Assembly (NCBI RefSeq): GCF_964355755.1
Contig: NC_092673.1
Coordinates: forward strand, 25,115,001 to 25,179,000
Length of the DNA stretch: 64,000 bases
Direction of reading: 5' to 3'
Source: Antedon mediterranea
Lineage: Eukaryota > Echinodermata > Crinoidea > Comatulida > Antedonidae
A model generated the notes under the pieces. That model was not told where the DNA came from and did not search any database. It worked only from the letters and a program-made list of their open reading frames with translations. The first letter of the stretch is position 1. Each line of letters begins with the position of its first letter. Below, in pieces: positions 1,340 to 52,018 of the stretch. The position numbers and the translations under genes were made by a program.

Positions 1340-2096
1340 GGTTTTATATTTGCACATTTAAATATACGTAGCCTAGACTTACATTTTGATGAATTGCAAC
1401 GTATTCTAAAATAACAACAATTTCAATGTTTTTGGCTTAAGAGAAACATTTCTAGATAATACATTTATTGATGAAGATTTTCATGTTGACAATTATATAT
1501 TACACAGACTAGATAGACGTAAAACTAAAAAAGGTGGTGGTGTAGCACTCTATATAAACCTAAAAACCAACCACAAAATTAGGAATGATCTAATGTGTAA
1601 TGAACTCGAACTCCTATCTATTGAAATAGTACGTGATAAATGTAAAAATCTAATTGTTCTATTGTGGTATAGACCTCCAAATACTACAGCAGTTCTTTTT
1701 GAATATTTACAAAATATATTTCAAAAGATTGAACTGGAACACAAAGATATTATGATGATGGGAGATTTAAACTGTGACGTTATGTCTGACAATCCACATT
1801 GCTACACAAAGAAACTAATTGAATTAAGTGAAAATTTTAATCTAAAACAGATCATTGAAGAACCAACACGTATAGAAAAACATTCCTCAACATTAATAGA
1901 TGTTATGTATTTCTCAAATGTTTCTAAAATATTAAAGTCTGGAGTTATCCACGTCGGCTTAAGTGACCACTCAATGCCAATAGGGAAAGGGGCGAAAAAT
2001 AATAAAGATTCCAATAAAACAAATAAAATTATTAAACAGGATCATAATTATAAAATGACACGAAACTTTAAAAATTTAATGAAGACAGTTTTTTAA
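1340..2096 (+). pseudogene. LINE endonuclease fragment
   Basis: The longest open part is 1593-2096 (167 codons). It contains GDLN, the APE/exonuclease-phosphatase metal-site motif, followed by a SDH motif near its end; both are diagnostic of LINE endonucleases. The preceding residues (HLNIRSL at about 1350) are in other frames, so the N-terminal half is frameshifted. This is a decayed copy with no independent function. Confidence 0.85.
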
Positions 2097-2201
2097 ACGA
2101 TTTATTAATGGTAAATTGGAATGGTATTACCGCCAGTGGCGACGTAAGTCAGAGTGCCAACAAACTTCTCGAAACTACACTAACCAACATCTTAGATAAA
2201 C

Positions 2202-3317
2202 ATGCTCCTTGGAAGAAACACAGGGTACGTAAAAAAAACAGCTCCTTGGCTCTCTGATGATGTAATTGAAAATATGAGAGAAAGAGATAAACTCAAAAGA
2301 GAATGTAAACATTCTAAAAATGAATCACTCTGGAAAAGGTACAGAAAGTATAGAAATATGTGCAATAAATTAATACGTAAAAGTAAAGCTAATTTTATTC
2401 AAGAAAGTATAAAAGAAAATAAAAACGATGTAAAAAAAACATGGGATACCATAAGATATATTATATCGTCAAAAAAGAAAACTAAAACTATTCAAACAAT
2501 TTGCAATGATAATGGCGATGTCCTCTATAAAGCCAAGGACATCGCAAATGAAATTAATACATTTTTCTCAAATATAGGTTCAAATCTTGCATCACAAATA
2601 CATGAGCCGATAAATGATATAAATTATGATGAAATCGATGCTTTCACCGAAAATAATTTTGAATTCGAACACATCACATGTGAATTTGTATATAAATACT
2701 TAAGTAATCTTTCAAAAAACAAAGCCACTGGTCATGATAACTTACCACCGAGCATTCTAAAACTGTCTGCCCCGATTATATCCCCAACAATTACAAGAAT
2801 CATAAATCATTCCTTCACAACATGTAAATTCCCAAATACGTGGAAAATAGCAAAGGTCACGCCAATTTTTAAGAATGGTGAAAAAACTAACCCTAATAAT
2901 TATCGTCCCATTTCCGTCCTACCTATACTTTCAAAAATAATTGAACGAGTCGTTTTTAATAATAATAATCTGTTATGTATAAATCAATCAGGTTTTCAAC
3001 CATCATACTCAACATCTACTGCACTTACAAAAGTGACGGAAGACTGGTATAGTGCAATAGACGAGGGTAAGCTGGTCGGAATCTGTTTACTAGATTTTAA
3101 AAAGGCCTTTGATACGGTAAACCATAACATACTATTAAGCAAATTGAGACTTTATGGTTTAAGTAAATATGTTTTAAAATGGTTCGAGAGCTATCTGTCT
3201 GAGCAAAAGCAATTCACAAATGTAAATAATACATTGTCTGACTATACACACATCCAATGTGGAGTGCCTCAGGGGTCAATCGTGGGCCCACTAAATTTAT
3301 TGTTCTTCAAAAAATGA
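2202..3317 (+). pseudogene. LINE reverse transcriptase fragment, catalytic block missing
   Basis: A 371-codon open stretch matches LINE reverse transcriptase: NYRPISVLP and the finger region, then LLDFKKAFDTVNH with the first catalytic Asp, then GVPQGSIVGP. Immediately after this the frame ends and the next recognisable piece (DDWLKNNKLSLNVSKSE, about 3360-3412) lies downstream of where the YADD motif should be. About 40 residues including both catalytic aspartates are therefore deleted. The N-terminal part is Lys-rich and resembles the linker between endonuclease and polymerase. Confidence 0.9.
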
Positions 3318-15724: not shown

Positions 15725-16799
15725 GGCGAAAAATATTGATACTTCATTAGTTTTGGGTTGTCAATATCATTGAAGCAGAGAAACATAGATCAAGGTAAGA
15801 ATAACTCTTTTGATACTTCTAATAAAATATTCTAACTTTGTAAAAGTCGGCTAAACCTTTTGCCTTTCTGGCAGGAAAGGTGTACTTGACATCTTTCACT
15901 AGTGCTACTGGATAGTGGTCTGAATTGACTATTGTTGTATCAATAACACTCTTTGTATGTTGATAGCTTAATATAATACCACGACTGTTAGTTATACTAG
16001 GTACTATTCAATGGTTCTATTACATGGCAGCATTTTCTAACACTGTGTGTAACGCTAGGCCGTAGAGTACTGCGCGTTTCTAAACCCGTGGTGTGGGCCG
16101 TCAATTTACTGTTCTCCGTGGCAAAAAGCCGTAACTTTTAAAATAGCTCAGCCTTTGACATTGATCAATGATGGAACAGACGGTTTCACTTAATAAACAT
16201 TTATTTTCGACCAGTAGATGACGTGTTAAAAAACGAACAAAAAATGAATGTTTTATATTCGTTAAATAAAAGCCTAACTGAAAACAGTCTATCTTTCAAC
16301 TCACGAACATTTTCTTCTGATTCAACATTCATTATCTGTATAATATATACATATATATATATTAATAACACTACGTTTTTATAGTATAGGCAATCATTCT
16401 GTCACTTAATTATTAGTTTTGTTGAAAAGTATCTATATTGAAAATCGCCATACCCAAAATATACTGTTGATACTTGCGGTACCGTACTTGTCAGACGATA
16501 AATGCTATAATTTTCTCGATTTATGCTTGGTTTCCGCTTGGACCCAATGCAACGACGTAGGCACAACGAAACGTGCTTGCGTTGCGTCCAAGTGGGAACC
16601 AACTTTTTTGGACAAAACAGAAATGATGATTATAATATACTTTTAATACAATATTCAATTTTTTTTAATCGAACATTAGAGGATGTAGTAGTCAAACATA
16701 ATTATTGTTTATGAGTGCGATGGTACTAAAAGTATATTCTTGTCATTGTAATCAGATTAAAACGTATGCCTGCTATAATAGGCTAGGATACCTAATTTG

Positions 16800-17150: not shown

Positions 17151-17199
17151 ATAGTAAATACATTTTATTTAATGCATTTGTAAATTTATTTTCAGAACT

Positions 17200-20100
17200 A
17201 TGCCTTGGCTTCGGTTTGCCCTGTTAGCTATTTTAATTGTGTCAGCCGTAAGCGGCGAAACAGTGGAAAATGACGCAGAGAACATTAACTCGGTGTCCCG
17301 TCCTGACGCTAATTTGGAGAGTAAATCCGACAGTAGACCTGATATCAGCTTGAGTGAAAAAGAGCAACCATTGGTTGCTTCTCCTCCTCTGAATATAATT
17401 ACTTCTGAAGGAACTGACAAAGTAAGAGCTTGCTGTAGACGTCGCAGAGTACGTCGATGCAGACGATGCCGCCGCCGATGTCATCGGTGTAGAAGACGAC
17501 GTTGTCGATGTAGAAAACGAGTAGTACGCCGTCGATGTAGAAGACGAGTAGTACGCCGTCGATGTAGAAAACGAGTAGTACGCCGTCGATGTAGAAGACG
17601 AGTAGTACGTCGTCGTAGATGTGGTCGATGTAGAAGACGACGAGTATGCTGTCGTTATCGACTGTTCCGAAAACGAGGCGCCTATTATCTCCGTGTACAA
17701 TGCGGTAGGCGTGTCCGTGTAGTACGTGTAAAATGCCGAAGACGTGGTGGAAGGTTTTATTATTACTTTGGTGGAAGATGGAGGTTAGCTGGAAGATTTA
17801 GAGTACGCACTACGTACAGAGTGTGTTGGAGAAACAATCGTTTCTACCTTCGTATACAATGTGGTAGACGTGTCCGTTATGTCCGTGTAAACTACAGAAG
17901 ACGTGGTGGTAGATTGTTTTACTTTTACAGAGGAAGATGGATAAGATTCAATCGATTTAGACGAAACGGAAGATGGGTAAGCTATCGTCGTTTTAGAATA
18001 AGAGTACGTACCACATACAGAGTTTGTTGGAGACGCAACCGCTTTTACCTTCGTATACGATGTGGCAGACGTGTCCGTTATGTCCGTGTAAACTACAGAA
18101 GACGTGGTGGTAGATTGTTTTACCGTTACAGAGGAAGATGGATAAGATTTAATCGCTTTAGACGAAACGGAAGATGGGTGAGCTATCGTCGTTTCAGAAT
18201 AAGGGTACGTACCACATATAGAGTTTGCTGGAGACGCAACCGTTTCTACCTTCGCATACGCTGTGGTAGACGTGTCCGATACGTCCATGTAAACTACAGA
18301 AGACGTGGTGGTAGATTGTTTTACCGTTACAGAGGAAGATGGATAAGATTTAATCGCTTTAGACGAAACGGAAAATGGGTAAGCTATCGTCGTTTTAGAA
18401 TAAGAGTACGTACCACATACAGAGTTTGTTGGAGACGCAACCGTTTCTATCTTCGTATCCGCTGTGGTAGACGTGTTCGATATGTCCGTGTAAACTACAG
18501 AAGACGTGGTGGTAGGTTGTTTTACCGTTACAAAGGAAGATGGATAAGATTTAACCGCTTTAGACGAAATGGAAAATGGGTAAGCTATCGTCGTTTTAGA
18601 GTACGTACCACATACAGAGTGTGCTGGAGACGCAACCGTTTCTACCTTCGTATACGCTGTGGTAGACGTGTCCGTTATGTCCGTGTAAACTACAGAAGAC
18701 GTGGTGGTAGATTGTTTTACCGTTACAGAGGAAGATGGATAAGATTTAATCGCTTTAGACGAAACGGAAAATGGGTAAGCTATCGCCGTTTTAGAGTACG
18801 TACAACCTACAGAGTGTGCTGGAGACGCAACCGTTTTTACCTTCGTATACGCTGTGGTAGACGTGTCCGTTATGTCCGTGTAAACTACAGAAGACGTGGT
18901 GGTAGATTGTTTTACCGTTACAGAGGAAGATGGATAAGATTTAATCGCTTTAGACGAAACGGAAAATGGGTAAGCTATCGTCGTTTTAGAGTACGTACAA
19001 CCTACAGAGTGTGCTGGAGACGCAACCGTTTTTACCTTCGTATACGCTGTGGTAGACGTGTCCGTTATGTCCGTGTAAACTACAGAAGACGTGGTGGTAG
19101 ATTGTTTTACCGTTACAGAGGAAGATGGATAAGATTTAATCGCTTTAGACGAAACGGAAAATGGGTAAGCTATCGTCGTTTTAGAGTACGTACCACCTAC
19201 AGAGTGTGCTGGAGACGCAACCGTTTCTACCTTCGTATACGCTGTGGTAGACGTGTCCGTTATGTCCGTGTAAACTACAGAAGACGTGGTGGTAGATTGT
19301 TTTACCGTTACAGAGGAAGATGGATAAGATTTAATCGCTTTAGACGAAACGGAAAATGGGTAAGCTATCGCCGTTTTAGAGTACGTACCACCTACAGAGT
19401 GTGCTGGAGACGCAACCGTTTCTACCTTCGAATACGCTGTGGTAGACGTGTCCGTTATGTCCGTGTAAACTACAGAAGACGTGGTGGTAGATTGTTTTAC
19501 CGTTACAGAAGAAGATGGATAAGATTTAACCGCTTTAGACGAAACGGAAAATGGGTAAGCTATCGTCGTTTTAGAGTACGTACCACCCACAGAGTGTGCT
19601 GGAGACGCAACCGTTTCTACCTTCGTATACGCTGTGGTAGACGTGTCCGTTTTGTCCGTGTAAACTACAGAAGACGTGGTGGTAGATTGTTTTACCGTTA
19701 CAGAGGAAGATGGATAAGATTTAATCGCTTTAGACGAAACGGAAAATGGGTGAGCTATCGTCGTTTTAAAATAAGAGTACGTACCACATACAGAGTTTGC
19801 TGGAGACGCAACCGTTTCTACCTTCGTATACGCTGTGGTAGACGTGTCCGTTATGTCCGTGTAAACTACAGAAGACGTGGTGGTAGATTGTTTTACAGTT
19901 ACAGAGGAAGATGGATAAGATTTAATCGCTTTAGACGAAACGGAAAATGGGTGAGCTATCGTCGTTTTAAAATAAGAGTACGTACCACATACAGAGTTTG
20001 CTGGAGACGCAACCGTTTCTACCTTCGTATACGCTGTGGTAGACGTGTCCGTTATGTCCGTGTAAACTACAGAAGACGTGGTGGTAGATTGTTTTACCGT

Positions 20101-20973
20101 TACAGAGGAAGATGGATAAGATTTAATCGCTTTAGACGAAACGGAAAATGGGTAAGCTATCGTCGTTTTAGAATAAGAGTACGTACCACATACAGAGTTT
20201 GTTGGAGACGCAACCGTTTCTATCTTCGTATCCGCTGTGGTAGACGTGTTCGATATGTCCGTGTAAACTACAGAAGACGTGGTGGTAGATTGTTTTACTT
20301 TTACAGAGGGAGATGGATAAGATTCAATCGATTTAGACGAAACGGAAAATGGGTAAGCTATCGTCGTTTTAGAATAAGAGTACGCACCACATACAGAGTA
20401 TGTTGGAGACACAACCGTTTCTACCTTCGAGTACAATGTGGCAGACGTATCCGTTATGTCCGTATAAACTACAGAAGACGTGGAGGTAGATTGTATTACT
20501 ATTATGGTGGAAGATGGAGAATATTTTCCCGCTACAGAAGAAACGGAAGGTGGGTAAGCTGTCGGCATTTCAGAATAAGAGTTCGCACCACATATAGCGT
20601 ATGTAGGAGAAACAACCGTTTCTATCTCCGTGTATGCCGTGGTAAAAGTATTCGTTATGTCCGTGTAAACTATCGTAAACGTGGTGGTATATTGTATTAC
20701 TACTATGGTGGAAAATGGATAAGGTTTAACCGCTTCAGAAGAAACGGAGGATGGGTGAGCTGCTCGAGCTTCATTTCTAGTTCTTCAGGTGGTTCAAGTT
20801 CAAGCGGTGGTAGCTCTTCAGTATCAGGTGGTGGCTCAGTCTCCGGTGGTGGCTCAGTCTCAGGTGGTGGCTCAAGCTCAAGCCACTCTTCAACTTCAAC
20901 TCACACTGTTAAAACTGCTGGTGGGACGGTAACTACCTATACAAAAACATATTCCTCTGAATCATCTGCTTAA
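17200..20973 (+). CDS. Secreted Arg/aromatic-rich tandem-repeat protein (1257 aa)
   Basis: No known family was recognised. Seen: a signal peptide (residues 1-19, cleavage near VSG-E); an acidic Ser/Glu-rich segment (20-76); an Arg/Cys block with four RRRC(R/K)RRVV-type decamers (about 77-150); one diverged unit; fifteen tandem units of 65 or 67 residues starting RVRTTYRVCW; and a Ser/Gly/Thr tail with three VSGGG motifs. A typical unit has about 26 Arg, 1 Lys and 15 aromatics, no Asp or Glu, and two Cys (VCW and RCGRR). Turn-forming NG, GG and RG pairs between aromatic strands suggest beta-hairpins. The start has a 5' splice-acceptor context and a signal peptide behind it. One coding exon; AATAAA follows at 21038. 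Inferred role: extracellular polycation, perhaps a matrix, adhesive or polyanion-binding protein. A related smaller gene is at 37212. Confidence 0.9.
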   Translation: MPWLRFALLAILIVSAVSGETVENDAENINSVSRPDANLESKSDSRPDISLSEKEQPLVASPPLNIITSEGTDKVRACCRRRRVRRCRRCRRRCHRCRRRRCRCRKRVVRRRCRRRVVRRRCRKRVVRRRCRRRVVRRRRCGRCRRRRVCCRYRLFRKRGAYYLRVQCGRRVRVVRVKCRRRGGRFYYYFGGRWRLAGRFRVRTTYRVCWRNNRFYLRIQCGRRVRYVRVNYRRRGGRLFYFYRGRWIRFNRFRRNGRWVSYRRFRIRVRTTYRVCWRRNRFYLRIRCGRRVRYVRVNYRRRGGRLFYRYRGRWIRFNRFRRNGRWVSYRRFRIRVRTTYRVCWRRNRFYLRIRCGRRVRYVHVNYRRRGGRLFYRYRGRWIRFNRFRRNGKWVSYRRFRIRVRTTYRVCWRRNRFYLRIRCGRRVRYVRVNYRRRGGRLFYRYKGRWIRFNRFRRNGKWVSYRRFRVRTTYRVCWRRNRFYLRIRCGRRVRYVRVNYRRRGGRLFYRYRGRWIRFNRFRRNGKWVSYRRFRVRTTYRVCWRRNRFYLRIRCGRRVRYVRVNYRRRGGRLFYRYRGRWIRFNRFRRNGKWVSYRRFRVRTTYRVCWRRNRFYLRIRCGRRVRYVRVNYRRRGGRLFYRYRGRWIRFNRFRRNGKWVSYRRFRVRTTYRVCWRRNRFYLRIRCGRRVRYVRVNYRRRGGRLFYRYRGRWIRFNRFRRNGKWVSYRRFRVRTTYRVCWRRNRFYLRIRCGRRVRYVRVNYRRRGGRLFYRYRRRWIRFNRFRRNGKWVSYRRFRVRTTHRVCWRRNRFYLRIRCGRRVRFVRVNYRRRGGRLFYRYRGRWIRFNRFRRNGKWVSYRRFKIRVRTTYRVCWRRNRFYLRIRCGRRVRYVRVNYRRRGGRLFYSYRGRWIRFNRFRRNGKWVSYRRFKIRVRTTYRVCWRRNRFYLRIRCGRRVRYVRVNYRRRGGRLFYRYRGRWIRFNRFRRNGKWVSYRRFRIRVRTTYRVCWRRNRFYLRIRCGRRVRYVRVNYRRRGGRLFYFYRGRWIRFNRFRRNGKWVSYRRFRIRVRTTYRVCWRHNRFYLRVQCGRRIRYVRINYRRRGGRLYYYYGGRWRIFSRYRRNGRWVSCRHFRIRVRTTYSVCRRNNRFYLRVCRGKSIRYVRVNYRKRGGILYYYYGGKWIRFNRFRRNGGWVSCSSFISSSSGGSSSSGGSSSVSGGGSVSGGGSVSGGGSSSSHSSTSTHTVKTAGGTVTTYTKTYSSESSA

Positions 20974-21037: not shown

Positions 21038-21043
21038 AATAAA
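21038..21043 (+). terminator. Poly(A) signal of the repeat-protein gene
   Basis: AATAAA lies 65 bp after the stop codon, in an otherwise AT-rich 3' flank. Confidence 0.6.
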
Positions 21044-22499
21044 TTTCATTAAGAATACTATTAGCAGTAATTTTGTTTTCATTATTTTGACTCGTTTCTG
21101 GTTCAGCCCTACCTCCATCGCCTTTGTTAACATAAATGCAATTATTTGTCGTCCTCCTTCTATTACCTAAAAGGCTGGAATACCACGTCGTCTCTTGATA
21201 CATTGAAATCGTTTTTTTCTTATTCAAGCACCAACCTAACTTCGCTAAACAAATTGAAACAAGGCCATATACATGGCTGCAGTCGCGTGCTCAAGTTAGT
21301 GTTTACCAACCAACCGACCGACCGACGAACTGACCGACATAGTGAGCTGTAGAGCAAAACAACAGGCCTACACGCATAGAGGCAGTTTTCCATTAGCATT
21401 GTTAGCAAATATATTTTTGCGAATCAAATATTGTTTAGTTCTGATTTGTTGCGTTATTTTTTCACGTCACAAAAATAAGCATGCGCTTTAGTCAACGTTT
21501 TTGATTCACTTGAATAAATTCGCCTAATGGAATACAGTCTTTAGATGAGTTATATAAACTATCCTTCGGCAATAAGCCCTCATGATTGAAGTCTCGCTAC
21601 ACTTTATGAGACAGAATAGAAAATAAACTAAATAAAAGTAAAGTAAAACAAAACAAATCTAGACTGAAGTAAATCAAAATACAGATTTGCAAAGCAGTAA
21701 CGTACTAGGCCTATAAAAAGATCATGGCTGAAGGTGGCTTAAGAACAGAAAACAGAGTTGTGGAATTGTGGCAAACTAACAAATGTATCCATAATAAATC
21801 GAACAAGCAAAAGTTATAGAACTACAGCTGTGTAATACTATTTGGTCGATGCAGATAATGTGCTACGGTACTTGTTGTAATGACGGTGTTTCACTTATAT
21901 TACCTACTATAACGAAATTATAGACCTCAAAATACAAATTCCAATATAGGATATTAAACAAGGTGATAATACAATTAAATGATTACACTGTTGGCTATTC
22001 AAATCATATTCAAAATTAAAACACAATACAACAAACAATCACATCAATTAGGCCTAAACGACCAAGAAGCATTGGTCTGAAGTTCGTTCAGACTTAGTCA
22101 TTATGTTCCTCTGTGGTTACACGTGACACGCGACGGGTTGTGTCGGTGTGTGGTGGTGGTTTTGAAGCATATTGATATACCTATTAGGGTGATTATGCCA
22201 AGCCTCCTAGGCCTAGCCTAGCTACACTACTACTAGCTAGGTATCGAGCCGGTCTGATTATTTTGGCCGCTGTTTATGAACGCCTACATGATGAACTTTT
22301 ATAATTTACTCACCATCGGTTTTACGTACAAGGGTTATGCCGGTGGATTACTCTAAACATCATCGTCTTTATTCACCAAAAAATCACCGCGATCGTATGA
22401 AACAAGCACGAATGTGCAATACTCGGGGTACAGCGAAAGAAGCTGTAATGACGTAACTGTAACGTCACATACACATCAATAACCGCGCTACCAAATACG
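21044..22499. other. Intergenic DNA with a SINE-like block
   Basis: At about 21268-21400 there is a (GACC)n block with CAGTCGCGTGCTCAAG before it and GACATAGTGAGCTGTAGAG after it, related to the flanks of the insertion at 3.5-4.2 kb. A GGCCTAGCCTAG run lies near 22210. No gene was recognised. Confidence 0.5.
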
Positions 22500-22920
22500 G
22501 CTATACGGTACCATCATCTCAGTCTGGTGTTCCTCAGGGATCAGTTTTAGGTCCCATGTTATTTAATATCTTTGTTTTTGATATGCCAGCTGTTATCTCA
22601 TCTCATATATTGCAATATGCAGATGATACAGTTGTATATAGAGCTATTAGATCTCCTGAAAACCATCAGTCACTTCATAATGATTTAACCTGTATTCTTC
22701 AATGGAGCATAACCAATAAAATGCTTCTGAATTCAACAAAATGTAAATGTATGCGCATAACAAGGTCATCTAGGTTAAGTAAACTTGGTAATAATTATAA
22801 AATAGGGGTTGACACCTTCAGCCAGGTTACCTCATACAAGTACATTGGGGTAACTTTTACGTCAAAATTAGATTGGGGATTACATGTGTCTCAGACAAGA
22901 TCAAAAGCTTCGAAATTAAT

Positions 22921-23170
22921 TCAATTCAATTCAATTCACATTTATTTACTCATCGTTTATAAATACAGTTTCATAGCATAAATGATGGCAAGGATCCTGC
23001 ATAGAGAAGTTTACACTTCTGTTTTCGCAGGACCCTTTTACATAAAAAAACATAAAACAATAAACACAACATAATAGATACAAAATAAAAAAAAAACATT
23101 TCCTATATACATTTTAGAGTTGTTCATCATCAAAAAGCGATACTGTTTTTCTAACATGATTATTTATACA
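22921..23170. repeat. Short interspersed repeat inserted in the LINE
   Basis: The LINE frame stops at SKASKL and resumes at about 23190 (RIVRCSRDTIVIPK). The intervening DNA begins with a (TTCAA)n run, contains AGGATCCTGCATAG and its partial complement GCAGGACCC, and ends in A-rich DNA. This looks like a SINE or MITE. Confidence 0.55.
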
Positions 23171-24567: not shown

Positions 24568-27264
24568 TTAGTCATTACTAAGGGTTATGCAGTGGGGTCG
24601 GATATACCGTTTATATGCGTCGCTTTTCCATCTTCCGGTAGCTTTAATTTCTTGTTCATCTGCGCCCAGGTCCCTAAGTTGCGTGGCCCTTCCGATTCTG
24701 AACGAGTGTGTGTTGTACCGGGTGTGGTCTAAGTTGGCGTGTAACGCGGCTTCTTTTAACGTATGACTTAAATGTTTCCTAAGTAGTGGAGCTCTAGTTT
24801 GAAATATGAAAAATTGCCCCCGAGTCGTAGGCCTGATCGAATTGTAATCCTGTAACGCTTTTACCGGGCATAATATGCTGTTTCCTTTTTTGTTAATGCT
24901 GAAATGTTGGGAATCGCCCTTGTGGTGTTTGAAGGAGTTAAATTGGAAGGTGACCTTGGTGTGTGAGATGGTAATGTCGCGAAGTTTTAGGACGTGTTCC
25001 GGATTATTGGTCCGTACCATTTCACTTGCCCTCGCACAAGCGTAGTAACAGGTGAGGAACAAAGCTTTATAAAGTTTCCTTTCGTATTCGTTGCTCTTAA
25101 TAAAATTGAGTTGAGAGAGAAGCTTCTCCATTATGGTAGTGGTAACCGGGTAAAGGCGTCGGCGGCGGCTGGCAACGTTGTATAGCTTCCCAGCACCTCT
25201 TGTGACAATAGTTAACAATGGTATGTTAGTAGGGTCTGGATTGTTGGTAATTTTGTGCATGAATGCAATGGCACTTAGATACGTTCTTATGGTATTTTGG
25301 TTGAGACCTGTCCGAAAGAGGTGGCAGACGAATAGTGAGATGTGGGGTGGTGAGATAGGCATTTGATGTGGTAGGTGGTGGCTTTGTAGGAACATAAGTA
25401 AGATTGACCACGCCCTGTTGTATGATTTTCTGGTTCCAGTCGTGACGGAAGCTCGTATCAGGTTTTCTTGAATGCAGCGAAGTTCTCTGGTAGCAGATGT
25501 GGTGGTATTGTTAATGGGTTTTGATGCATTCCGAATTGTTTGAGAAGTTTTTTTTGTTACCTGTGAACGGGAAATTGCATCACTTAGTACATTTTTAATA
25601 CCTGGTATATGCCTGGCGGTTAGATGTATATTATGTGTAAGTAGTACTAATACTAACGGCCTGATTATGCGCATTACATCAGAATTAGAACTAGTTTTGT
25701 TGTTAACATGATAGACATTGGGTAGGTTATCGGTGTGAAATACTACATGAGTGTTGGCCAGTTGGCTTGAGTACAGTGATATCATGAGATAAATAGGGTA
25801 CATTTCTAAGACCATTATATCTAACTTCTTCCAACGTTCTGGCCATATACCGTGTACCCACGTAGCCCCAAATGTAGCACCAAATTCCCTTTTGGAAGCA
25901 TCTGAAAAGAAGTGAAGGCATTCAGAGTCCTTTTTTGGTAGTACGTTGATGATAGTGGTTCCATTGTATTGGTCAAGAAATTGTATCCAAATTTTCAAGT
26001 CTTCACGTACTCCTTGGGTAATACGTATTTTTGAGTCGGGATTTGTCTGACCTTTTGTGAGTGTATATAGTCTTGTAAGGAAAGCCCTGCCGGTCTTAAT
26101 AACGCACGTGGCGAACTGAAGTTTTCCGGTAAGAGATTGAAGTTCTCGGAGTGTTATGTAATGTGAACTCGACCATTTTTTTACTTCGGACCTATACTTT
26201 TCTAGTTTGTCCTTGGGTAATCTGGCTACCATAGCTCGCGTATCCAGTTCGATCCCTAAAAAGGTTAATTTTGTAGTTGGCTCCACTGTTTTGTGAGGAG
26301 AGAGAGGAAGGCCAATGGCATCTGATAAGGCAATGAGATTGTTAAGGTACCTTTGGCACTCATGTTTTGTATCGCCTATAAGCAGGAAATCGTCTAATAC
26401 CTTGACTACGTTTTTTCATGCTAGTTTATTTGTCAGTATCCATTTTATTCCGTCTGAAAACGATTCAAAAATTCTACAAGAGGATCCACACCCTTGTGGG
26501 AGGACCTTATCGTAGTACAGTTTGTTTCTCCAAGAAAACCCGGTAAGGTGATACTGTGTTTTGTGCAGGGGAATGAGCCGGAAAGCATCTTGAATATCGC
26601 TTTTGGATAGGTAGGCTGGGTAGGTGGATTTTTGAATGATATTTACGGCTGTGGATATATTTTCGTAGTGGACTGTTTTGTAGTGTTGAGGAATATTATG
26701 ATTCACTGATCTTTCGTCGTGCGGATATGATAAGTTATGAATTAATCTGTATTTTCCTGCAACGGATTTCTCCCTCAAACTTAGTGGTGACGATTTGAAA
26801 TGTAGAAATGGGGGCGAATCGAATGGGCCAGCGATACGCCCTGTAGCAATCTCTTTAGCAATCATCGGTTGGATAATTTGAGGTTTCTGTAATGCCGATG
26901 CTGAATTTTTTGCAGTAAAACCGGCTTCAGGACCGTCGTAATTCAGGAAAAAACCATTTTTAAAGCCGGAAATGAGGTAATCTTTGTTGGAACATCCCGA
27001 GAGAAGGGTTTCGAGTTTATCTACCCTTAGGGGGGTTGGCAGTGGGGTTAGCAGGGGATGTTGTTGTTGTTGATGGGTGTCGTGATTGATTTGTATCTCG
27101 TTTGCACAGGAAATATGGGTGTGGCCTGTCTTCGGAGCATTTAAAGCATTTATGAGAGAACTTACAGCGGTATGGTTGTGAGCACTTTCGCGCTGGGGTG
27201 TGGTATGCTTGGCAGTATCCGAGTGGTATTTTAGACAAGTTCTATTTCCTCTGAAATATGATGT
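24568..27264 (-). pseudogene. Ngaro pol: reverse transcriptase, RNase H, tyrosine recombinase
   Basis: One frame of about 900 codons, interrupted only by a TGA at 26416-26418. The reverse transcriptase has YRLIHNLSYP, SKSDIQDAFRLIPL and LPQGCGSS, and just past the stop VLDDFLLIG with the catalytic Asp pair. RNase H shows FSDASKREFGA, then LEMYP, then HTDN, then RHIPGIKNVLSDAISR. The tyrosine recombinase follows with ARASEM (catalytic Arg I), THSFRIGRAT (His-x-x-Arg), GRWKS, and the nucleophile in YKRYIR near the C-terminus. The enzymes would copy element RNA and integrate a circular DNA by recombination. The nonsense codon lies in front of the catalytic Asp pair, so no active enzyme is expected. 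Confidence 0.9.
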
Positions 27265-28379
27265 AAGAAGCATTTTTGGGTAGAAGCTGGGATCCACTTG
27301 ATTTAGGATATTTCGACCTCGCTGATTACGAATATGGCGGATCCCAAGCGAAATTCGGCCATCTAAGCCCTTAATTTGCATAATTAAAAATGGCGGCCAT
27401 TTTTTATAATTACCCTATATCTCGAGAACCACTAGTCACAGATAATTAATTTTGGTGTCAAAATGTTTTAAATATATGTGTTTATATTCACTTTAATGAC
27501 ACATTTTCTCAAAAAATGGATGCAAGTCTTATTTCTGACATTTTGACCTTTGACCTTGATTTATCGTATCTCAGTAACCAATAACCGGAGAGACACGAAA
27601 TAGGGCTCAAATTGTTCAGAAACTATACATTCTTATTTATTATAATGAAATGTTTTTACAAAAAATGGCCGATTCTACAACTATTGACCTTTGAACTATT
27701 AGTCAAATATAATAATATAATAATAATATAACTTTGAAAATTGTGGTCTTATGAATTTTTTTTTCTTTTTAAATTGTTTAAAACATGTGTGTTTCTATAC
27801 AGTCTAATGGCACATTTTGTACAAGAATGGCCGATAGTATGGTTATTGACCTTTAAACTACAGCATAGGCCTACTGTATACTGAATATAATATAATTGCA
27901 TAACTATGAAATTATTTATACTCAATAATAATTAGTAAAATTATAAAATTCACTGCCATCAAATATGATGTGTTATGATTTATATAGATTAAAAAAAAAA
28001 TTGAACACGCAAGTTACATTTGTTGAAATTTGAAATTACCTGCCATCAATATGATGGAGTATGATTATAGATTTTTTTAAATGTGAACATGTCAGCTACA
28101 TTTGGAAATTACCTGCCATCAATATGATGGATTATGATTATAGATTTAAAAAAGAATTTGAACACATAAGCTACATTTGAAAATTACCTGCCATCAATAT
28201 GATGGATTATGATTATAGATTTAAAAAAGGATTTCAACACGTCAGCTACATTTGGAAATTACCTGCCATCAATATGATGGATTATGATTGTATAGTACCT
28301 GCCATCAATATGATGGATTATGATTGTATAGGTTTGAAAGAAAAGTGAACACGTAAGCTACATTTGGAATGGACATGTT

Positions 28380-29929: not shown

Positions 29930-30800
29930 CATAATCCATCATATTGATGGCAAGTAATTTTCAAATGTAGCTTACGTGTTCAAATTCTTTTTTAAATCTA
30001 TAATCATAATCCATCATATTGATGGCAGGTAGGCTACTATACAATCATAAGCCATCATATTGATGGCAGGTAATTTCCAAATTTCCAAATGTAGCTGACG
30101 CGTGTGTTCAAATTCTTTTTAAAATCTATAATCATAATCCATCATATTGATGGCAGGTAATTTTCAAATGTAGCTTACGTGTTCAAATTCTTTTTAAAAT
30201 CTATAATCATAATCCATCATATTGATGGCAGGTAATTTCCCAATTTCCAAATGTAGCTGACGTGTTCAAATTCTTTTTTAATTCTATAATCATAATCCAT
30301 CATATTGATGGCAGGTACTATACAATCATAATCCATCATATTGATGGCAGGTAATTTCCCAATTTCCAAATGTAGCGGACGTGTTCAAATTCTTTTTTAA
30401 TTCTATAATCATAATCCATCATATTGATGGCAGGTACTATACAATCATAATCCATCATATTGATGGCAGGTAATTTCCAAATTTCCAAATGTAGCTGACG
30501 TGTTCAAATTCTTTTTTAAATCTATAATCATAATCCATCATATTGATGGCAGGTAATTTTCTAATGTAGCTTACGTGTTCAAATTCTTATTTAAATCTAT
30601 AATCATAATCCATCATATTGATGGCAGGTAATTTCCAAATGTAGCTGACATGTTCACATTTTAGAAAATCTATAAGCACACTCCATCATATTGATGGCAG
30701 GTAATTTCAAATTTCAAATTTCAAAAAATGTAACTTTCGTATTCAAATTCCTTTTTAAATCTATATAAATCATAACACATCATATTTGATGGCAGTGAAT
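29930..30800. repeat. Array of ~75-80 bp repeats with CCATCA...TGATGG core (right arm)
   Basis: About twelve copies of CCATCATATTGATGG, each followed by CAGGTAATTT and a TGTAGCTTACGTGTTC block. The left arm (about 27950-28340) has five or six copies in inverse orientation. Regular subterminal palindromes of this kind often serve as transposase-binding sites; that role is inference. Confidence 0.8.
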
Positions 30801-33055: not shown

Positions 33056-33860
33056 TTTGTGTCGTTAATCGCACGACATACAAGAGAATTTATGTATGTG
33101 CCTTGTCTTCGACTAAGGCGAAAGTAAATGTGCGAGTCTTTATCGCACGACATATAAAATTCATGTGCGAGTCGTTAATCGCACGACATACAAGAGAATT
33201 TATGTATGTACCTTGTCTTCGACTAAGGCGAAAGTGAATGTGCGAGTCATTATCGCACGACATATAAAATTCATGTGCGAGTCGTTAATCGCACGACATA
33301 TAAGAGGATTTACGTATGGGCCTTGTCTTCGACTAAGGCGAAAGTGAATGTGCGAGTCATTATCGCACGACATATAAAATTCATGTGCGAGTCGTTAATC
33401 GCACGACATACAAGAGAATTTATGTATGTACCTTGTCTTCGACTAAGGCAAAAGTAAATGTGCGAGTCATTATCGCACGACATATAAAATTCATGTGCGA
33501 GTCGTTAATCGCACGACATACAAGAGAATTTACGTATGGGCCTTGTCTTCGACTAAGGCGAAAGTAAATGTGCGAGTCATTATCGCACGACATATAAAAT
33601 TCATGTGCGAGTCGTTAATCGCACGACATATAAGAGGATTTACGTATGGGCCTTGTCTTCGACTAAGGCGAAAGTAAATGTGCGAGTCATTATCGCACGA
33701 CATATAAAATTCATGTGCGAGTCGTTAATCGCACGACATACAAGATGATTTATGTATGTACCTTGTCTTCGACTAAGGCGAAAGTGAATGTGCGAGTCAT
33801 TATCGTACGACATATACGATTCATGTGCGAGTCAATCATCGCACGACATATAAGAGAATA
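33056..33860. repeat. 110 bp satellite, about seven copies, in the Ngaro leader
   Basis: GTCGTTAATCGCACGACATA recurs at about 33062, 33172, 33282, 33392, 33502, 33612 and 33722, with a diverged last copy. Each unit also carries a second related block (GAGTCATTATCGCACGACAT) and CTTCGACTAAGGCGAAAG, so it has an internal half-repeat and short hairpins (GTGCGA...TCGCAC, CTTCG...CGAAAG). The four overlapping 60-codon frames are produced by the period. Confidence 0.9.
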
Positions 33861-36443: not shown

Positions 36444-37211
36444 GAAATGGGTTTTAATACAATGTACTGGGGCATTTATTCGAAAGGGGGATGCGTTTAT
36501 TCCAAATGATTTTATATGGGGTGGCGGGGGTTCGTGTAATAAAAGCGGGGCGTTTATTTTAATAAATACGTTATATAGGCCTAAACGTTTTTAATAGAAT
36601 TTATAAACTGATCTAACATGGATATTTATGTCTGTGACTTCAAGTGCTGACGTTGGACACTCAATTGTATTTTTTTTGTACCAGCATTTAAGGTCTATTA
36701 TCAATATTACCGTCTGTTACAACATTCTAAACTCATTGTAGCTTTGTGAGTTGGAGCGCGTAGTTCGTGGTTGCTGTAACCGGTAAGTAATTTTCAATGT
36801 ACTGTATATGCCTACCACACGTATAAAATAAAGTAGGTTTATTGTTTATGGGAATAATTTGCGCACGGGGTAACATTGTCAATATCAGGATTTTCAATAA
36901 CTAAATTTAAACTGTTGATTTGCGATATTGTTTGTTGTTTCTTTGGACATTGTCGACAAAGAGTAGATGTTTAATATTGATGATTAATGAATATTTATAA
37001 TAAGAACCTAATGGTGTTAAATACATTTTTGTGTTACTACACAAAGATCGGTGTATATAATTAAATGTTAACACTATTACTGCTAAAATAATTAATGGAA
37101 TCCAGAAAGGCTTAGTTATATTTTTAATAAGGCTTTTACTAATCTTCAGCAATGACAAATATTGCAATTTCAAACAAGTTATTATATTGTGTGTGTATTC
37201 ACTCAACAGCA

Positions 37212-38036
37212 ATGTTTCGACACACGGTTGTTTGTTTGTGGGTGTTAGCAGCTACAGCGTGCATCGTATGTGCTCTAAGTGAAGATGTCGCTTTGAAGAA
37301 TTTCGCCCAGACGTCTAAGCAATCAAAACTAGTTTCAACCAAACAAGAGTCGAACTTGAGGAAAAACAACAATGTTTTCAGTGATGAATCGAAATCAAAA
37401 GATATTAAAAAGGATATCAATCGGTACCATGTTTACAACTACCATCGATTCTTCTGGAATAAAGGTCATCTTTATTTGTACATTCGACAGACAATAAAAC
37501 GTATCCACCGGGGTAAAACAATGTCCTACGCAGATTTCAGACAACGATCTTTTCTCAGACTATTGCAATACCGATGGTACCATCACCGCCTGTATTTCAA
37601 AATTCACGACAGCCCATTTTCAAGATGGAGATTCATCAAATCGTATATTCTTAATCACAAGTTGTACACTTACCATAATGGCCGATACCGTCATAATTGG
37701 GGTATACACTCTTCAAAACCATTCTTTTTCTGGTTCCGACGTCGTCTTTACTACCGTATCAAACGAGGCCGATTTTTATTCTACGGACACGTTCGTTATA
37801 GATGGAAACACGGAAGTCTGTACTACCTTCATCGCAGAGGCATCCATAGTAAATGGGTTCTGGTTCGTACATATAAAAAACATGGCAGTACTTATCACTA
37901 TCGCAATGGTCGCTACGTACGTAGTCGTAGTCGGAATTATCGCAAGCATCATTATCGCCACAGATTAAATAATCGACGATGGAGCACAAGACGATATCGC
38001 ACGAATGTATACCAAGTGCATCGCAATGATAAATAA
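37212..38036 (+). CDS. Secreted His/Arg/Tyr-rich basic protein (274 aa)
   Basis: A smaller relative of the protein at 17200. Seen: a signal peptide (about 1-21), a hydrophilic Lys/Ser/Asn segment (22-72), then basic aromatic sequence to the end. The part RRRLYYRIKRGRF...RYRWKHGSLYYLHRRG...KWVLV...KKHGSTYHYRNGRYV aligns in order with the 65/67-residue unit of the larger gene; an earlier, weaker unit precedes it. It has about 21 His and no Cys after the signal peptide, unlike the larger protein. A probable non-coding exon ends at 36782 (CCG|GTAAGT) and the coding exon begins at an acceptor ending 37209; an in-frame ATG at 37152 would put extra residues before the signal. AATAAA overlaps the stop codon; another lies near 38268. 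Function unknown; probably extracellular. Confidence 0.85.
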   Translation: MFRHTVVCLWVLAATACIVCALSEDVALKNFAQTSKQSKLVSTKQESNLRKNNNVFSDESKSKDIKKDINRYHVYNYHRFFWNKGHLYLYIRQTIKRIHRGKTMSYADFRQRSFLRLLQYRWYHHRLYFKIHDSPFSRWRFIKSYILNHKLYTYHNGRYRHNWGIHSSKPFFFWFRRRLYYRIKRGRFLFYGHVRYRWKHGSLYYLHRRGIHSKWVLVRTYKKHGSTYHYRNGRYVRSRSRNYRKHHYRHRLNNRRWSTRRYRTNVYQVHRNDK

Positions 38037-38464: not shown

Positions 38465-41332
38465 TTATTCATTCTTGTCATCGCCTGTTGACTGGATCTT
38501 CAAAAGCTGCACGGTTCCATAATCGTTAGTAGGCGGATCATCGTTCGAGGTATCACACAATGTTTCTTCTTCTTCTTCTAGGTCTACTGCAGCCTTACTA
38601 TGATGATAGCCATATTTTGCATATATAATCAACCCTTTAATATATGAAAAGTATATTATTACCCAAAATAGAAACATTAGGTACATCCATACATTTAGGA
38701 AGCATTCGATTTTCGACGACAAAGAACGCATAGGGGGTAGGGGGGGGGGGTTGTTTGGGGGGGGGGGGGGGAGGGGGTTGTTGCGGGGTTAGTGGGACGT
38801 TTTTCATCACTGTGTTCTTCGACACGAGTTTTTGTTGTTGTCTTCTACGTCCAGACGACGACCGACGACGCATGCGTATGTCATAGGTCATCCCAAATCT
38901 TAATTCAAATGCTGCGGATAGAGTAGCCAAACAAAATAGAGTTTGAAATACCTCACTTTTTGCTTTAGTTTTATTAGTTTTATCGTGATCTCAAATGGTT
39001 TTCGATGGCATCATTCATATTCTCGATTTATTGAATGGCAGTGCTGCAACCAAATGTTAAACGTTAAAAGGTACTAACTCTTACCTATTAATACCCATAT
39101 AGCAAAACGAATCCACGTAAATATCGACAAATTTACCAAAAGCACAATGTTGAAAAGCATGGAAAAAGCTGGAACAAATGGTACATACGGAGTCTGGGAA
39201 AAAATAACATTTAAAATAGATTTAGCTACACTTATAAATGCAACTTATGGACGATAACGAACGAAGATAAATAGGTCTATACAAATAGGCCCTATTTTTT
39301 CTAACAGAACAAAAAATGGATAAGTTATAATCCTAGATCTATACGATTAATACGGTCTTAGTAAAATCAAATGATGCAGTGATCAATAAGAACAATATGA
39401 ATTTAATTTTTTGGAATCAATATTTATCGGCGTATATTTGGAAACATATACAGTACAATTAGTCTTTAGACCATTACCAGATCACCAGAAATACTAAGTT
39501 TATGAAGTCACGGCGATCGGTCAGATCAGCATTATCATGCAACATTTTAAATTTAAAAATACATTCCTGTTAGGTTTAACCAGACCTTTTGGTAGCCTCA
39601 ACTATATTTGTGACTTAGGTTCAAATTGCGAACAATTTGGCATCTCTGTCACTATGGCAATGTCACTATGGCAAGACGTTTTAGTTTTTATATTATTGTT
39701 TTATGGAGTGCGTTTTCTAAAGAAATAATAGAGTGAAATTAACAAGTTGTATTAGCCTACATGTCTTACCCGAAAAGTCAACTCTTCGTTATTCTGGTAG
39801 TGCATCAATATAACAGCAAATGAAAATATGCATCCAAGTATAAATAGGAAAAACAGTATAATATAAATCCAAGACCCTTTCATGACGTCATTGTGGTTTA
39901 GCATAACAACTACACAGGCGCAACACAGTGCATACGCTATCGTTGCTATTGCAACAGTACGTCCGGGAACTTCACTCGCCAAGAAATTTAAACATTGAAA
40001 TTTCGGTTTTAATGTTCCACTTAATTCGCCAACACGGCTGCGACAAAGGTCCGTTGAAAGGCTACATTGCTTGTTAAACATTTTAACGTTTTCTTCTTCA
40101 GGTCTGTACCGAAGGTTTATAACAGACCCTGAAACAACTGTGTAACAGATTAAACTTCCAATATTAAGAGATTCAACCAAGGCGTAAAAGTCTACGAACA
40201 AAACCACAAGTATTGTAATTCCTCCGAATATTAGAGTTGCTGTAACCGGCACACGATTTCTTGATGAAACTTGTGATAACTGTGTAAACATGAGTCCATC
40301 TTTAGCCATTGAATAGACAAATCTTGGCAGCGCATGTAAGGTTACCAACGTGGATCCAGAAACAGAAAATGTCAACGCCACTACAATAACGTATGTTGGA
40401 ACGACTTCTCCAAGCTGTTGAAAAGCATCTGAAAGTGGCACGATCGGATTTATTTCACACCATGGTACAATCAGCGTTAACGTGCTCACTAATACTAAAT
40501 TAATACAGGTGTTAACTAAGACGGCAGATAGTAAAGCTTTTGGAACACTTTTTACGGGGTCTATACATTCCTCGCTAGATATACAAATAACTTCAAACCC
40601 AGCATAAAGGAAGAACAATTTGGCAGATCCCGACACAACACCACCGAAACCGTACGGAAAAAATCCACCGTAGTTTGACCAGTTAGAAAAGTTGATATGA
40701 GGAACCCCATAACCTTCAAGAATAGCTATAAACGTCATTACAAATATAACGACGATTGCATTTATACGCGATGATATTTTAACTCCAAATAGAAGAATTA
40801 TTGTAAAACATAATATCATAAATGCGGCAAGTAAATCTGGATAGTTGGCTAAAAATGGCGTATTCCATTCCTTTCCATTCAATATATAATTCACTGTTAA
40901 ATTGTGTAGGACATCGCCAAACATGTTATCGATAGTTGATGACAATGCACGAGATAAACTTCCAGCACAAGCTACATATTCTAATATCATATTCCATCCT
41001 ATTATAAACGCCCATATTTCACCAATTGTCAGATAAGTATATAGGTAGGCGCTACCAGCTTGCGGAATTCGACAGCAAAATTCTGCGTAGCATAAGGCTG
41101 AAAGCAAGGCCGAGGCAGCCGCGATGAGTATTGAGACATCTACAGCTGGACCTGCCAGTGTGGCAGCAACAGACCCACATAAAATAAACACACCAACACC
41201 AAGAACATAACTTAATGCAATAAATGTTAAATCAAATGTTGTTAAGCATCTGTTAAGCTTTGTCTTTAAAATATCTGAACGAATTATCTTTCGTCGAATT
41301 ATATTTGCGAATATATTTTTAAACTTTTCCAT
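38465..41332 (-). CDS. Cationic amino-acid transporter, SLC7A1-4 (CAT) type
   Basis: Three exons join in phase: 41332-39770, 39193-39085 and 38634-38465, giving 613 residues, near the usual size for CAT proteins. Such proteins carry arginine, lysine or ornithine across the plasma membrane. Seen: a basic N-terminus, then TM1 with LSYVLGVGVFILCGSVA (the conserved G-x-G-x-F type motif), AGPAVDVSILIAA, YAEFCCRIPQAGSAYLYTY, an ICISSEECIDPVKSVPKA loop motif, and a C-terminal half with TPYVPFVPAFSM, TWIRFAIWVLIG and YGYHHS, a CAT hallmark. About 14 membrane segments are expected. The C-tail is acidic (EEEEE). Introns have GT/AG ends; the second holds a poly-G tract. Whether it is CAT1-3-like or the SLC7A4/14 branch was not resolved. 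It converges with the basic repeat gene. Confidence 0.92.
38730..38775. repeat. Poly-G tract in a CAT intron
   Basis: Two long G runs (9 and about 15) within 45 bp, on the strand opposite to transcription. The 97-codon Pro-rich frame here is low complexity. Confidence 0.9.
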
Positions 41333-44144
41333 ATCAATTCAATTTCCGTATCGACCACTGATCACTTTCTAAGAATATAAAAGCATGTAACTGAATTATT
41401 ACTGGTTTTTGTCTTAATGTAACTTGTTTAATTCAACAGATATGACAATAGTACAATACAGTTTATTTCTTTTACATAGCATTATACGCCAGTTTAGCTG
41501 CCTCGGGGTTGAAAATCGGTTCCCTCGAATATAGGCCTATACTTTAGCATAATTGTGAGTAATAGACTTAACTAAAACAACTACAGTAGAGTAAAACAAC
41601 TACTGGACAGTATAAAACACTTCAGTACCTTATTATGACTGATATGCCTACCGGATATTCCAACAAACTTCTTGATTTGAATAACAATTTTAACCATTAA
41701 AGATATCCATTCCCGTCCACTAAAATGACTAAGACGTCATATTATATACAGTGGCTATAGCTCGAATCCATTTGTAAGCATGCATTGCTGGAGTTTTACA
41801 ATACCCTTTATACTTCTTTAGATTCTTTCAGTTGTTTAATTCAGTATAATACCTCAAATAGCACGTATTCAACGCACAATACAAAAGCACTCTTTTCACT
41901 AACAAAAGTATTTTAATATTAAATAAGCGTTGTGTGACGGTACATTTTATCAGGAAGAGTTAAATTAAACTCTTCCCTGATCTTATCAATATATTATGTG
42001 TTGTGACGCTTGTGCGACAGAGTTAAATTATAGGCCTACCTTAAACAATTTTGAATTCGACTGTATCATAGACATATGTATGTAGAAAAATAACCGTATA
42101 TACACCGACACTTCGTTTGTCTGTAGGCCTACTCGTTTTAATGCTTTTTATTTGAGATGCATGCGTTTACACGTGAACCATGGAGGTATAATTATACCTC
42201 CAGCGTGAACCATCTGTCATAATATTAGGCCTACGTGTATGAAATTAGTCATTAGTCATTAACTTGTTTAAAGGATAGTGGATATAATGGGTTTTCACAT
42301 GCGATGCAACAATACGAATTATGTTGGGAGTGGCAATACATATTTGATTTACGGTGGCCTGTAAGTGTCACACATGCAACGACAAGGATTCTGTAGGGAT
42401 TGGCAATGCATATTTGATTTACGGTGGGCCGTAAGTGTCACGCATGCAACGATACGGAATCTGTAGGGAGTGGCAATGTATATTTGATTAACGGTGGCCC
42501 GCAAGGGTCACGCAAACTTTTATAAACATGTCACGGCAATAGAAAAAAAAAACATCAGCGGCATCAATGCTACAGTGAACACTGTAATACTGTTTTTACT
42601 GTGGAAAACTTCAACACAAAGAAGAAAACAAAAAAATCCACAATCATCAGTATTTATTTATGAATTAAGATTGTTAATTCAGAATGGTTTTTTTTGCAGC
42701 CACCCACCCCAGTGTTAAAAGCAACCAATGGAAAACACCGGAACAATGCCGTGGGTATCGGAACGAAATTGTAACATTAATATAATAATACTGAGCATTT
42801 ATAAAGCGTTCTTGAACATTGCTGTAAGACCGAAAGTTGTTTTAATTAAAAGTTGTCATTAAGGACTTTGCCTCAACCCCCACTATTTAAATTCAAGCAT
42901 ACAAAACCTACCGAAACGTTATATATAATATAGCTCAAATGTATCTAGTCATTCTGCTCTTTTAAAAGTGTGCTTTTTGCGTAAAATATACATACCAGCA
43001 TACCATAAAAGAAGATCTACAAAGGCAGGAAGGTTTGTTGGAGAAACTAACCATGAGATGATAGTTTGAATCTCAATGAATAACTGCGTTAATTTTTTAT
43101 TTACAGTAATATATATAAATTATATAATATCCAATTTGCAGACAGTACTGTTTTGATCTTATCAGATCTCGTCAGTGCATAATATAATTATTTAATAAAA
43201 ATAATGTTATTTAATGTAATATTCTTAAAGATATGCAACATGAATGTGCTTCTCTTATTCCTTTTGATTTCATTTATTTAAAGGTAGGGCAATAAAGTCA
43301 AGCTTGTAAAACCAAAAAAAGTCTAAAAAATATGATTGGCATTTCTTTTTATCAGGGTACTGTATCTTTTCTCCATGCCGTCATAGTTATATCATGGTTA
43401 TATACAGTAGTTTCTTATCTTCAACACATCTAACATCAAGAAAATCGCCATCACATCATGGATAAACCATGAGGCATACAATAATGATATAACAACAACA
43501 AAATTAATAATAAAAACTATGTAATTCTTTTCCAGACTTTAAATTGTAAAATATTAGATCCAAGTATATATATTTATTATTTTTGCTTAATTTAACATAT
43601 CAGTTATTTACTATATTCCAAATTTTCTTATTCAGATTTTTAATTCTCATGTAACCAATATTTATTTATAGGCTTTTGTTTTTCTTTAACTTTACTGTTA
43701 TTGTTGTATGTGTATTTTATCCAAATGATCAGCAATTGTTGGATGGATTACCCTTATTTAATATGGTTTTAAAAAAACCAATAAAAAAAAACACGATGTT
43801 TATATAAAAAAAGTCTCATTTGAGGCTTAGAAAGTGGTAGAACCAGTTGTTAGTTACAACCATGGCACTAGTTCAGGATTAACCTTGGACTTTTTCATTG
43901 AAAGGCATGCATGTTAACCACCAAGCTGCAGCTCCACCAGAATACCAATATAAAGCATTTGGATTGTGCAAGAAAGGTTTTAAAATTCCACTTCATATTT
44001 TGTGTAAAAATAAATAGAAGAGATAGAAACAGATACAACAGTCTGTTCTGAAAGCTGTTTTGAGAAATTAAAGAAAAAATTCCTGACCATGCATTATCTA
44101 TTGATACTGAAACTAACATGCTGATTTACACCACTCCAGTACCT
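41333..44144. other. Intergenic DNA with a 69 bp tandem array
   Basis: 42296-42520 holds about 3.3 copies of a unit containing GGGAGTGGCAATACATATTT, then GATTTACGGTGGCC, then GTAAGTGTCAC. A 31 bp palindrome lies at about 41951-41981 (AGGAAGAGTT...AACTCTTCCCT), and GGAGGTATAATTATACCTCC at about 42183. The remainder is AT-rich DNA that includes the 3' UTR of the Deltex gene. No gene was recognised. Confidence 0.6.

Positions 44145-52018
<7,874 letters not shown>

Follow-up and report, generated by a model that had tools for sequence, protein, structure and literature searches.

An Arg/aromatic repeat protein of the crinoid Antedon mediterranea and its predicted family of secreted, nearly acid-free modular proteins

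Introduction

The histidine-rich proteins of squid beak and the Nereis jaw protein Nvjp-1 are His/Tyr-rich structural proteins that are thought to bind metals or to be cross-linked, and both are Gly-rich and of low complexity. Arenicin and tachyplesin are antimicrobial peptides of about 17-21 residues, with Arg and aromatic residues on beta-hairpins and Cys in conserved disulfides. The cement of sabellariid (sandcastle and honeycomb) worms contains His-rich basic proteins, and a sulfated polysaccharide takes part in the complex coacervation from which its granules arise, according to PubMed Central article PMC12621633. In this study, we analysed a stretch of 64,000 nucleotides from the crinoid Antedon mediterranea (GCF_964355755.1, contig NC_092673.1, positions 25,115,001 to 25,179,000 of the forward strand; hereafter the window, in whose numbering positions are given), in which the open reading frame (ORF) at 17200-20973 (+) encodes a predicted secreted protein built of Arg/aromatic repeats. 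Judged from its sequence, this window ORF belongs to a previously unrecognised multigene family of secreted, nearly acid-free, modular proteins.

By composition, the family resembles the sabellariid proteins Pc-4, Pc-5 and Sa-5 in being basic, His- or Tyr-rich, repetitive and of secreted type. The published His content of Sa-5 is 8.6%, against 25-30% in the whole family members on chromosome C2 and 41-48% in their repeat blocks. A predicted folded beta module of about 65 residues and much Arg set the family apart, by description, from the sabellariid cement proteins, and the Arg/aromatic module likewise separates it from the squid-beak proteins and Nvjp-1, which are without one. With arenicin and tachyplesin it shares Arg and aromatic beta-hairpins with Cys, but its modules stand in arrays, its Cys are not conserved, and the conserved intramolecular disulfide that closes the hairpin of such peptides was not found.

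Results

Composition of the window protein

The window ORF is a single unbroken frame of 1257 codons. An earlier sequence-only reading had described it as a secreted polycation with signal peptide, acidic leader, repeat array and Ser/Gly tail, and its coordinates, length and layout were all correct on recheck. The array (residues 201-1193, 17800-20778, +) consists of 15 units of 65 or 67 residues, with 14 start-to-start spacings (eight of 67 and six of 65) and a final unit that merges into the tail. No Asp or Glu occurs inside any of the 15 units, and the whole protein has only 13 acidic residues, at 20-73 and 1254. Units 1-14 are 33-40% Arg and 21-24% Phe, Trp and Tyr; the complete protein contains 428 Arg (34%), with a net charge of about +440 and a computed pI of about 12. 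The statement that each unit has exactly two Cys held for 13 of the 15 units, the last two having three each. Missing from that account were an Arg/Cys segment, a partial 16th unit, an open antisense frame of 999 codons, and another member of the family elsewhere in the window.

A family on three chromosomes

A search of the window's own genome (eleven contigs between 22 and 41 Mb in length plus seven smaller than 0.6 Mb) found at least 14 related ORFs, one of them broken, on three chromosomes. Chromosome C4 carries the window ORF, its neighbor winB, L001 (1850 residues), L002a (490), L002b, L003 (1028) and L004 (1259), L002b being a 305-residue piece of a copy disrupted by stops and frame changes. 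On C11 lie L005 (1004), L006 (342), L007 (700), L008 (314, about 5 Mb away) and L047, a leader relic of 52 residues, and on C2 lie L022 (2169), L023 (2196) and L045 (2875). This census is a lower bound: of 57 candidates the L022 query scored 22, its own locus not among them, and the L045 query retrieved only its own gene. Further matches were one at C2:25194717 with 22 stops inside and L043, 28 residues at C4:25070233. Matches on C3, in a frame of 838 residues, were dropped as a simple RQGPYVQIQQL repeat.

A hidden Markov model (HMM) grown from the window units recovered 109 modules of about 65 residues in 14 ORFs (domain E<1e-3, Z set to 100), including 16 in the window ORF, two in winB, 25 in L001 and 20 in L045; the model was trained on 13 of the 14 ORFs, where the counts are partly by construction, and L045 was not used in training. 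The consensus of 41 chosen modules, xxxWRxxRLYxRxRxGRRxxxxxVRYRxRxGRLYYYxxxRWxxVxxYxxNGxxYxxxxGRYxxxx, has one invariant Trp. Residues about 697-1180 of L045 form six repeats with an exact period of 81 residues, each a module plus a RLRRHITHHPRHKP linker, with a ratio of nonsynonymous to synonymous differences (pN/pS) of 0.17.

Parts outside the modules also recur. The hydrophobic N-terminus is found in all 14 family ORFs, and a clear AG acceptor lies 1-4 nucleotides 5' of the ATG in 13 of them, the site of L023 being less clear (..GACAGTTAAGAACC). The first 70 positions hold 4-14 acidic residues, the value of 4 occurring only in L045; beyond residue 70, L001 (1780 positions), L022 (2099) and L023 (2126) have a single acidic residue each. 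In L003 and L004 (C4:25.084-25.103 Mb) the acidic leader is reused as an internal spacer between His/Tyr-rich and Arg-rich stretches. These two loci are about 95% identical over 1.3 kb 5' of the ATG and represent a recent duplication.

Evidence that the repeats are coding

At the DNA level the array repeats in tandem every 201 bp. Since the antisense frame over it is also open, for all of its 999 codons, openness alone is no proof of a gene and the substitution pattern has to decide. In 300 first-order Markov sequences of equal length, no stop-to-stop ORF exceeded 210 residues; this control ignores tandem repeats, although a frame can stay open because of them, and selection is the stronger test. 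Among 12 array units, pN/pS in the sense frame was 0.08, whereas the open antisense frame gave 3.65 and the four remaining frames, each interrupted by stops, gave 0.26-3.69. Between the units of the window ORF and those of L001 it was 0.40 in sense and 1.71 in antisense. The array units share 96-98% DNA identity inside one gene and 83% between the two genes compared, and are thus homogenised within each gene.

These patterns indicate that the repeats of 17200-20973 are coding and that the ORF is a real, functional gene under purifying selection. Two comparisons weigh against this: L003 and L004 differ at 30, 23 and 26 sites of codon positions 1, 2 and 3 (pN/pS 0.64, on few changes), and the window gene and the broken L002b differ almost evenly, at 39, 38 and 46. 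A frame merely opened by the tandem DNA repeat, without any functional gene, would agree with the 201-bp periodicity, the open antisense frame and the slight constraint between L003 and L004, but it is very improbable given the gap between the sense and antisense ratios; besides, paralogs share features that lie outside the repeats (signal peptide, leader motifs, splice acceptor), and modules that have diverged to mostly 23-45% identity with the window unit keep the pattern.

Predicted fold and cysteines

AlphaFold2, given a shallow alignment of 14 sequences with window-only rows, predicted a single unit as a seven-strand beta-meander with a mean predicted local distance difference test (pLDDT) score of 91.4 and a predicted template modelling (pTM) score of 0.72, and the same fold is predicted for each unit of the array. 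The beta-hairpin build with NG/GG/RG turns that the sequence-only reading had proposed is borne out by predicted strands at 4-11, 14-21, 24-35, 38-43, 46-50, 52-55 and 58-61, separated by RN, GR, GG, RG and NG turns. The solenoid proposed with it found no such backing: a three-unit model reached pLDDT 82.8 and pTM 0.41, and the packing of neighbours was not confidently predicted, for which the shallow alignment may be the cause. In view of this low pTM, the arrays are read in the models as beads on a string. A unit of about 37% Arg without salt bridges also raises the question of stability, presumably attained only with counter-ions.

One disulfide per unit had been suggested as well, and here the evidence is unfavorable. 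A single Cys occurs in 20 of the 21 counted L001 units; L023, its signal peptide aside, contains one Cys in all. With two-residue turns, strand assignments by DSSP would place Cys9 opposite residue 16 and Cys21 opposite residue 4, so that the two would not be neighbours. Since Cys9 and Cys21 would be out of register and nearly all counted L001 units retain just one of them, an intra-unit disulfide does not seem to be a design feature of the family. Alternation of basic and aromatic residues was significant in the window array (z 5.4) and the L001 array (z 4.9), values that repetition inflates, but not in a single unit (z 1.1); it was absent or reversed in L005, L007, L022, L023, L045 and winB (z -2.7 to 0.2).

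Histidine/tyrosine repeats of the C2 members

L022, L023 and L045 contain His/Tyr blocks of 1060-1290 residues with a period of 36 and a His content of 41-48%, in which 31, 33 and 28 stacked repeat copies were counted, respectively. The 36-mer consensus of L045 is HHYHHYYHxHHRYHHRxIYHHIxIxHHRHxHHRHxI; that of L023 is similar and that of L022 a variant. The blocks lie at about 400-1690 in L023 and about 1330-2390 in L045, with 45-48% His and a weaker sub-period of six residues. Although the two genes are about 30 Mb apart, their His blocks share 80% amino-acid identity over 1060 codons, with saturated synonymous differences (pS 0.96), pN 0.12 and pN/pS 0.13; 191, 117 and 548 of the 856 differences fall at codon positions 1, 2 and 3. 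The C-terminal modules of the same pair are 46% identical, with pN/pS 0.47. Identity of 80% despite synonymous saturation suggests that the 36-residue repeat is old and that constraint acts on its individual positions. By their composition, these repeats are a striking candidate for metal binding.

Searches for known relatives

That the units belong to no recognisable family, as the sequence-only reading had it, was upheld by the searches, which gave no convincing match in Pfam, PDB sequences or PDB folds. Of the 14 whole proteins, seven (the window ORF, winB, L004, L005, L006, L007 and L022) were compared with Pfam-A and none scored above a curated cut-off. Among 41 single modules, eight families matched weakly, each in one or two members, the best being DUF2145 in one member (E 0.0008); in whole L005 the DUF2145 match reached 12.3 bits, where the cut-off is 25. 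The window ORF matched six PDB sequence entries at E 0.18-0.92, mostly antibody chains and judged to be chance, and the module profile matched none up to E 10. Foldseek returned no PDB fold at E<=0.001 for the one-unit and three-unit models (best E 0.71 and 0.011, respectively), and the best VIA-align Z scores were 3.2 and 3.1; a weak or missing match in such structural libraries does not rule out a fold. The nearest folds, SH2 segments, fatty-acid-binding barrels and fibronectin type I in t-PA, are alike only in antiparallel beta-sheet segments. None of 33 genome-contig and none of five viral-contig pattern matches encodes a relative of P0001, in a prokaryotic and viral search that detects close relatives only. 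Titles and abstract beginnings of the open-licence PubMed Central literature contained nothing recognisable as the module family. As a domain, the module of about 65 residues looks new, and uncharacterised orthologs of it are likely in other crinoids. The secreted, repetitive, basic matrix protein as a kind is a variant of something known.

Gene structure

A CAG splice acceptor at 17193-17195 (+) lies 4 nucleotides 5' of the ATG (CAG|AACT ATG), so that the coding exon would begin at 17196. Because of this acceptor, the gene likely has a non-coding first exon and one coding exon. A weak upstream block at 16151-16241 (+), 69-75% identical to sequences at L002b, L003 and L004 over 71-91 bp (blastn, E 9e-7 to 5e-4), is tentatively a candidate promoter or non-coding first exon. 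The signal peptide covers residues 1-19 (MPWLRFALLAILIVSAVSG; 17200-17256, +), with its cleavage site placed by the -3/-1 rule. It is followed by the acidic leader (residues 20-73; 17257-17418, +), whose motifs SRPD..L and SLSEKEQ are common to several paralogs. The Arg/Cys segment (CCRRRRVRRCRRCRRRCHRC...; residues 76-150; 17425-17649, +) contains 14 Cys, with 17 counted to residue 200, and encloses a 27-bp tandem repeat at 17504-17615; similar segments occur in L001, L002b and L005-L008. The partial 16th module (residues about 151-200; 17650-17799, +) accounts for the 16th HMM match. Downstream of the array, the Ser/Gly/Thr-rich tail (residues 1194-1257; 20779-20970, +) has Ser-rich counterparts in L001, L006, L007, L008 and L023, and an AATAAA polyadenylation-like signal lies at 21038-21043 (+). 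The second family member, winB (37212-38036 with the stop, +; 274 residues), is strongly diverged and has a signal peptide, a leader, two modules and an acceptor whose AG ends at 37209.

Neighborhood and other genome observations

Between winB and a gene at 45131-46891 (-), whose ORF matches a Macro domain, a RING finger and the Deltex C-terminal domain and is reminiscent of PARP9/DTX3L, lies a single-ORF gene for an SLC7-type amino acid permease at 39752-41338 (-). Its 24 further matches at E<=1e-5 are confined to C3, C4 and C5, away from the family loci on C2 and C11, and several long open copies occur on C3 and C4. A functional pairing of an Arg transporter with the Arg-rich gene was therefore rejected, the adjacency being probably accidental. 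Mobile and repetitive sequences in the window comprise a DIRS-like reverse transcriptase adjoining a tyrosine-recombinase (Phage_integrase) ORF at 24568-27414 (-), ORFs of the long interspersed nuclear element type at 1410-3317 and 22463-22981, and satellite-like tandem arrays at 33061-33859, 28028-28331 and 30080-30712 (110 bp x 7.3, and 75-bp arrays in opposite orientation around 28-31 kb).

Chromosome C2 also carries a Hox cluster of 12 homeodomains, assigned by eye, in the order Hox1 to Hox8, 9/10, 11/13a, followed by two posterior genes face-to-face. As reported by Li et al. (PMC7351957), the feather star Anneissia japonica has a matching Hox set, other echinoderms lost Hox4 or Hox6 in a lineage-specific manner, the face-to-face posterior pair is a difference from hemichordates, and two further posterior genes, Hox11/13d and e, lie elsewhere in other echinoderms. 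The posterior pair is more than 360 kb from Hox11/13a in Anneissia and 47 kb in the genome analysed here. The cluster points to an ambulacrarian and, more narrowly, to a crinoid, probably a feather star, with which eleven chromosomes would agree; a tunicate origin, considered because of DOPA-rich blood-cell proteins, was rejected on this ground. Mitochondrial COX1 had no match in the assembly (G000).

Discussion

Such a polycation would require polyanionic partners, for which a condensed granule or matrix is a common biological solution. We tentatively favor, at a little under an even chance, the reading that the window protein family supplies the polycationic and His-rich half of a secretion or matrix that is stored and coacervates, with the saccules as first-choice site. 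The protein would be made behind its short acidic leader, stored in secretory granules, where it may be condensed with a polyanion such as a sulfated glycan, a phosphoprotein or a sulfated polyketide pigment, and after release would set into an insoluble matrix. Contacts between Arg and anions and between Arg and Tyr would hold this matrix, exposed Cys and oxidised Tyr could form cross-links between chains, and the His-rich sister proteins might add metal- or pH-dependent bonds.

To our knowledge, the content of crinoid saccules has not been identified. Saccules are our first guess, with adhesive glands second, because those of Antedon mediterranea autofluoresce and are labelled by sense and antisense riboprobes alike, as PMC9793003 describes; such staining and autofluorescence would fit a store of polycationic aromatic protein, though the evidence is circumstantial. 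A further article, PMC9848802, proved irrelevant in this respect, since its saccules belong to urchin pedicellariae. In a two-component system that pairs an Arg-rich protein with a Tyr-rich anionic peptide, Coulombic forces and the Tyr hydroxyl are reported to be important and cation-pi contacts not to be essential (PMC13339138). Support may also come from L044 (G000:C2:32946449-32947108, minus strand), the only place at which the genome was matched by the tyrosinase model of Pfam; the match crosses stops that are presumably introns.

Several points weigh against a condensed saccule matrix. Most coacervating cement proteins are disordered, unlike the folded, confidently predicted module. The number of Cys is not conserved, which makes Cys cross-linking a guess. 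L044 is on C2 and not on the chromosome of the window, and megabases separate it from the closest family locus. Sticky probes and autofluorescence have many other possible causes, and the intestine autofluoresces too (PMC9793003).

Other roles overlap with this one, and their likelihoods are not meant to add up to certainty. An underwater adhesive, permanent or temporary, acting in the larval attachment pit or the tube-foot papillae instead of as a saccule product, would draw on the same tyrosinase-type match; the composition is like that of the basic His/Tyr-rich cement proteins (PMC12621633), and the crinoid doliolaria fixes itself by an adhesive pit (PMC11336682). We consider this role unlikely on present evidence. 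Much the same low probability attaches to an antimicrobial or defensive polyprotein, in which cationic beta units would be excised, or act on membranes as an array, and be released on attack. Its cationic, aromatic, Cys-bearing hairpins recall arenicin and tachyplesin, the alternation in L003 and L004 of acidic spacers with cationic or His segments is like a multi-peptide precursor, and units are homogenised within genes; yet no unit-specific cleavage site exists, basic pairs everywhere would shred the units, the predicted fold requires about 60 residues, all but one of the counted L001 units have one Cys, and arrays of 16 modules (window ORF) or 25 (L001) with Ser-rich tails are atypical of peptide precursors. 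Less probable still is a carrier or counter-ion for sulfated crinoid pigments, that is, a cationic aromatic scaffold storing anionic planar polyketides: sulfated anthraquinones and naphthopyrones are abundant in crinoids and the composition would suit anionic aromatic molecules, but pigment terms do not occur in the one crinoid paper checked for them (PMC10967334).

The favored reading, the polycationic half of a stored secretion, has a bolder extension, which we hold to be doubtful. A new domain and a new class of material would then coincide, acid-free polymers of folded beta-meanders, with one branch of about 37% Arg and another bearing the 36-residue repeat of up to 48% His, making up the saccule content, condensing on polyanions and setting by metal-His, Arg-anion and Tyr/Cys cross-links. 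If true, concrete genes would be in hand for the content of the saccules or for a glue. The family would also present an unusual material design, in which predicted folded modules jointly carry over 400 positive charges without a single acidic residue, together with 36-residue His repeats that would be suited to metal binding and whose conservation has outlasted synonymous saturation.

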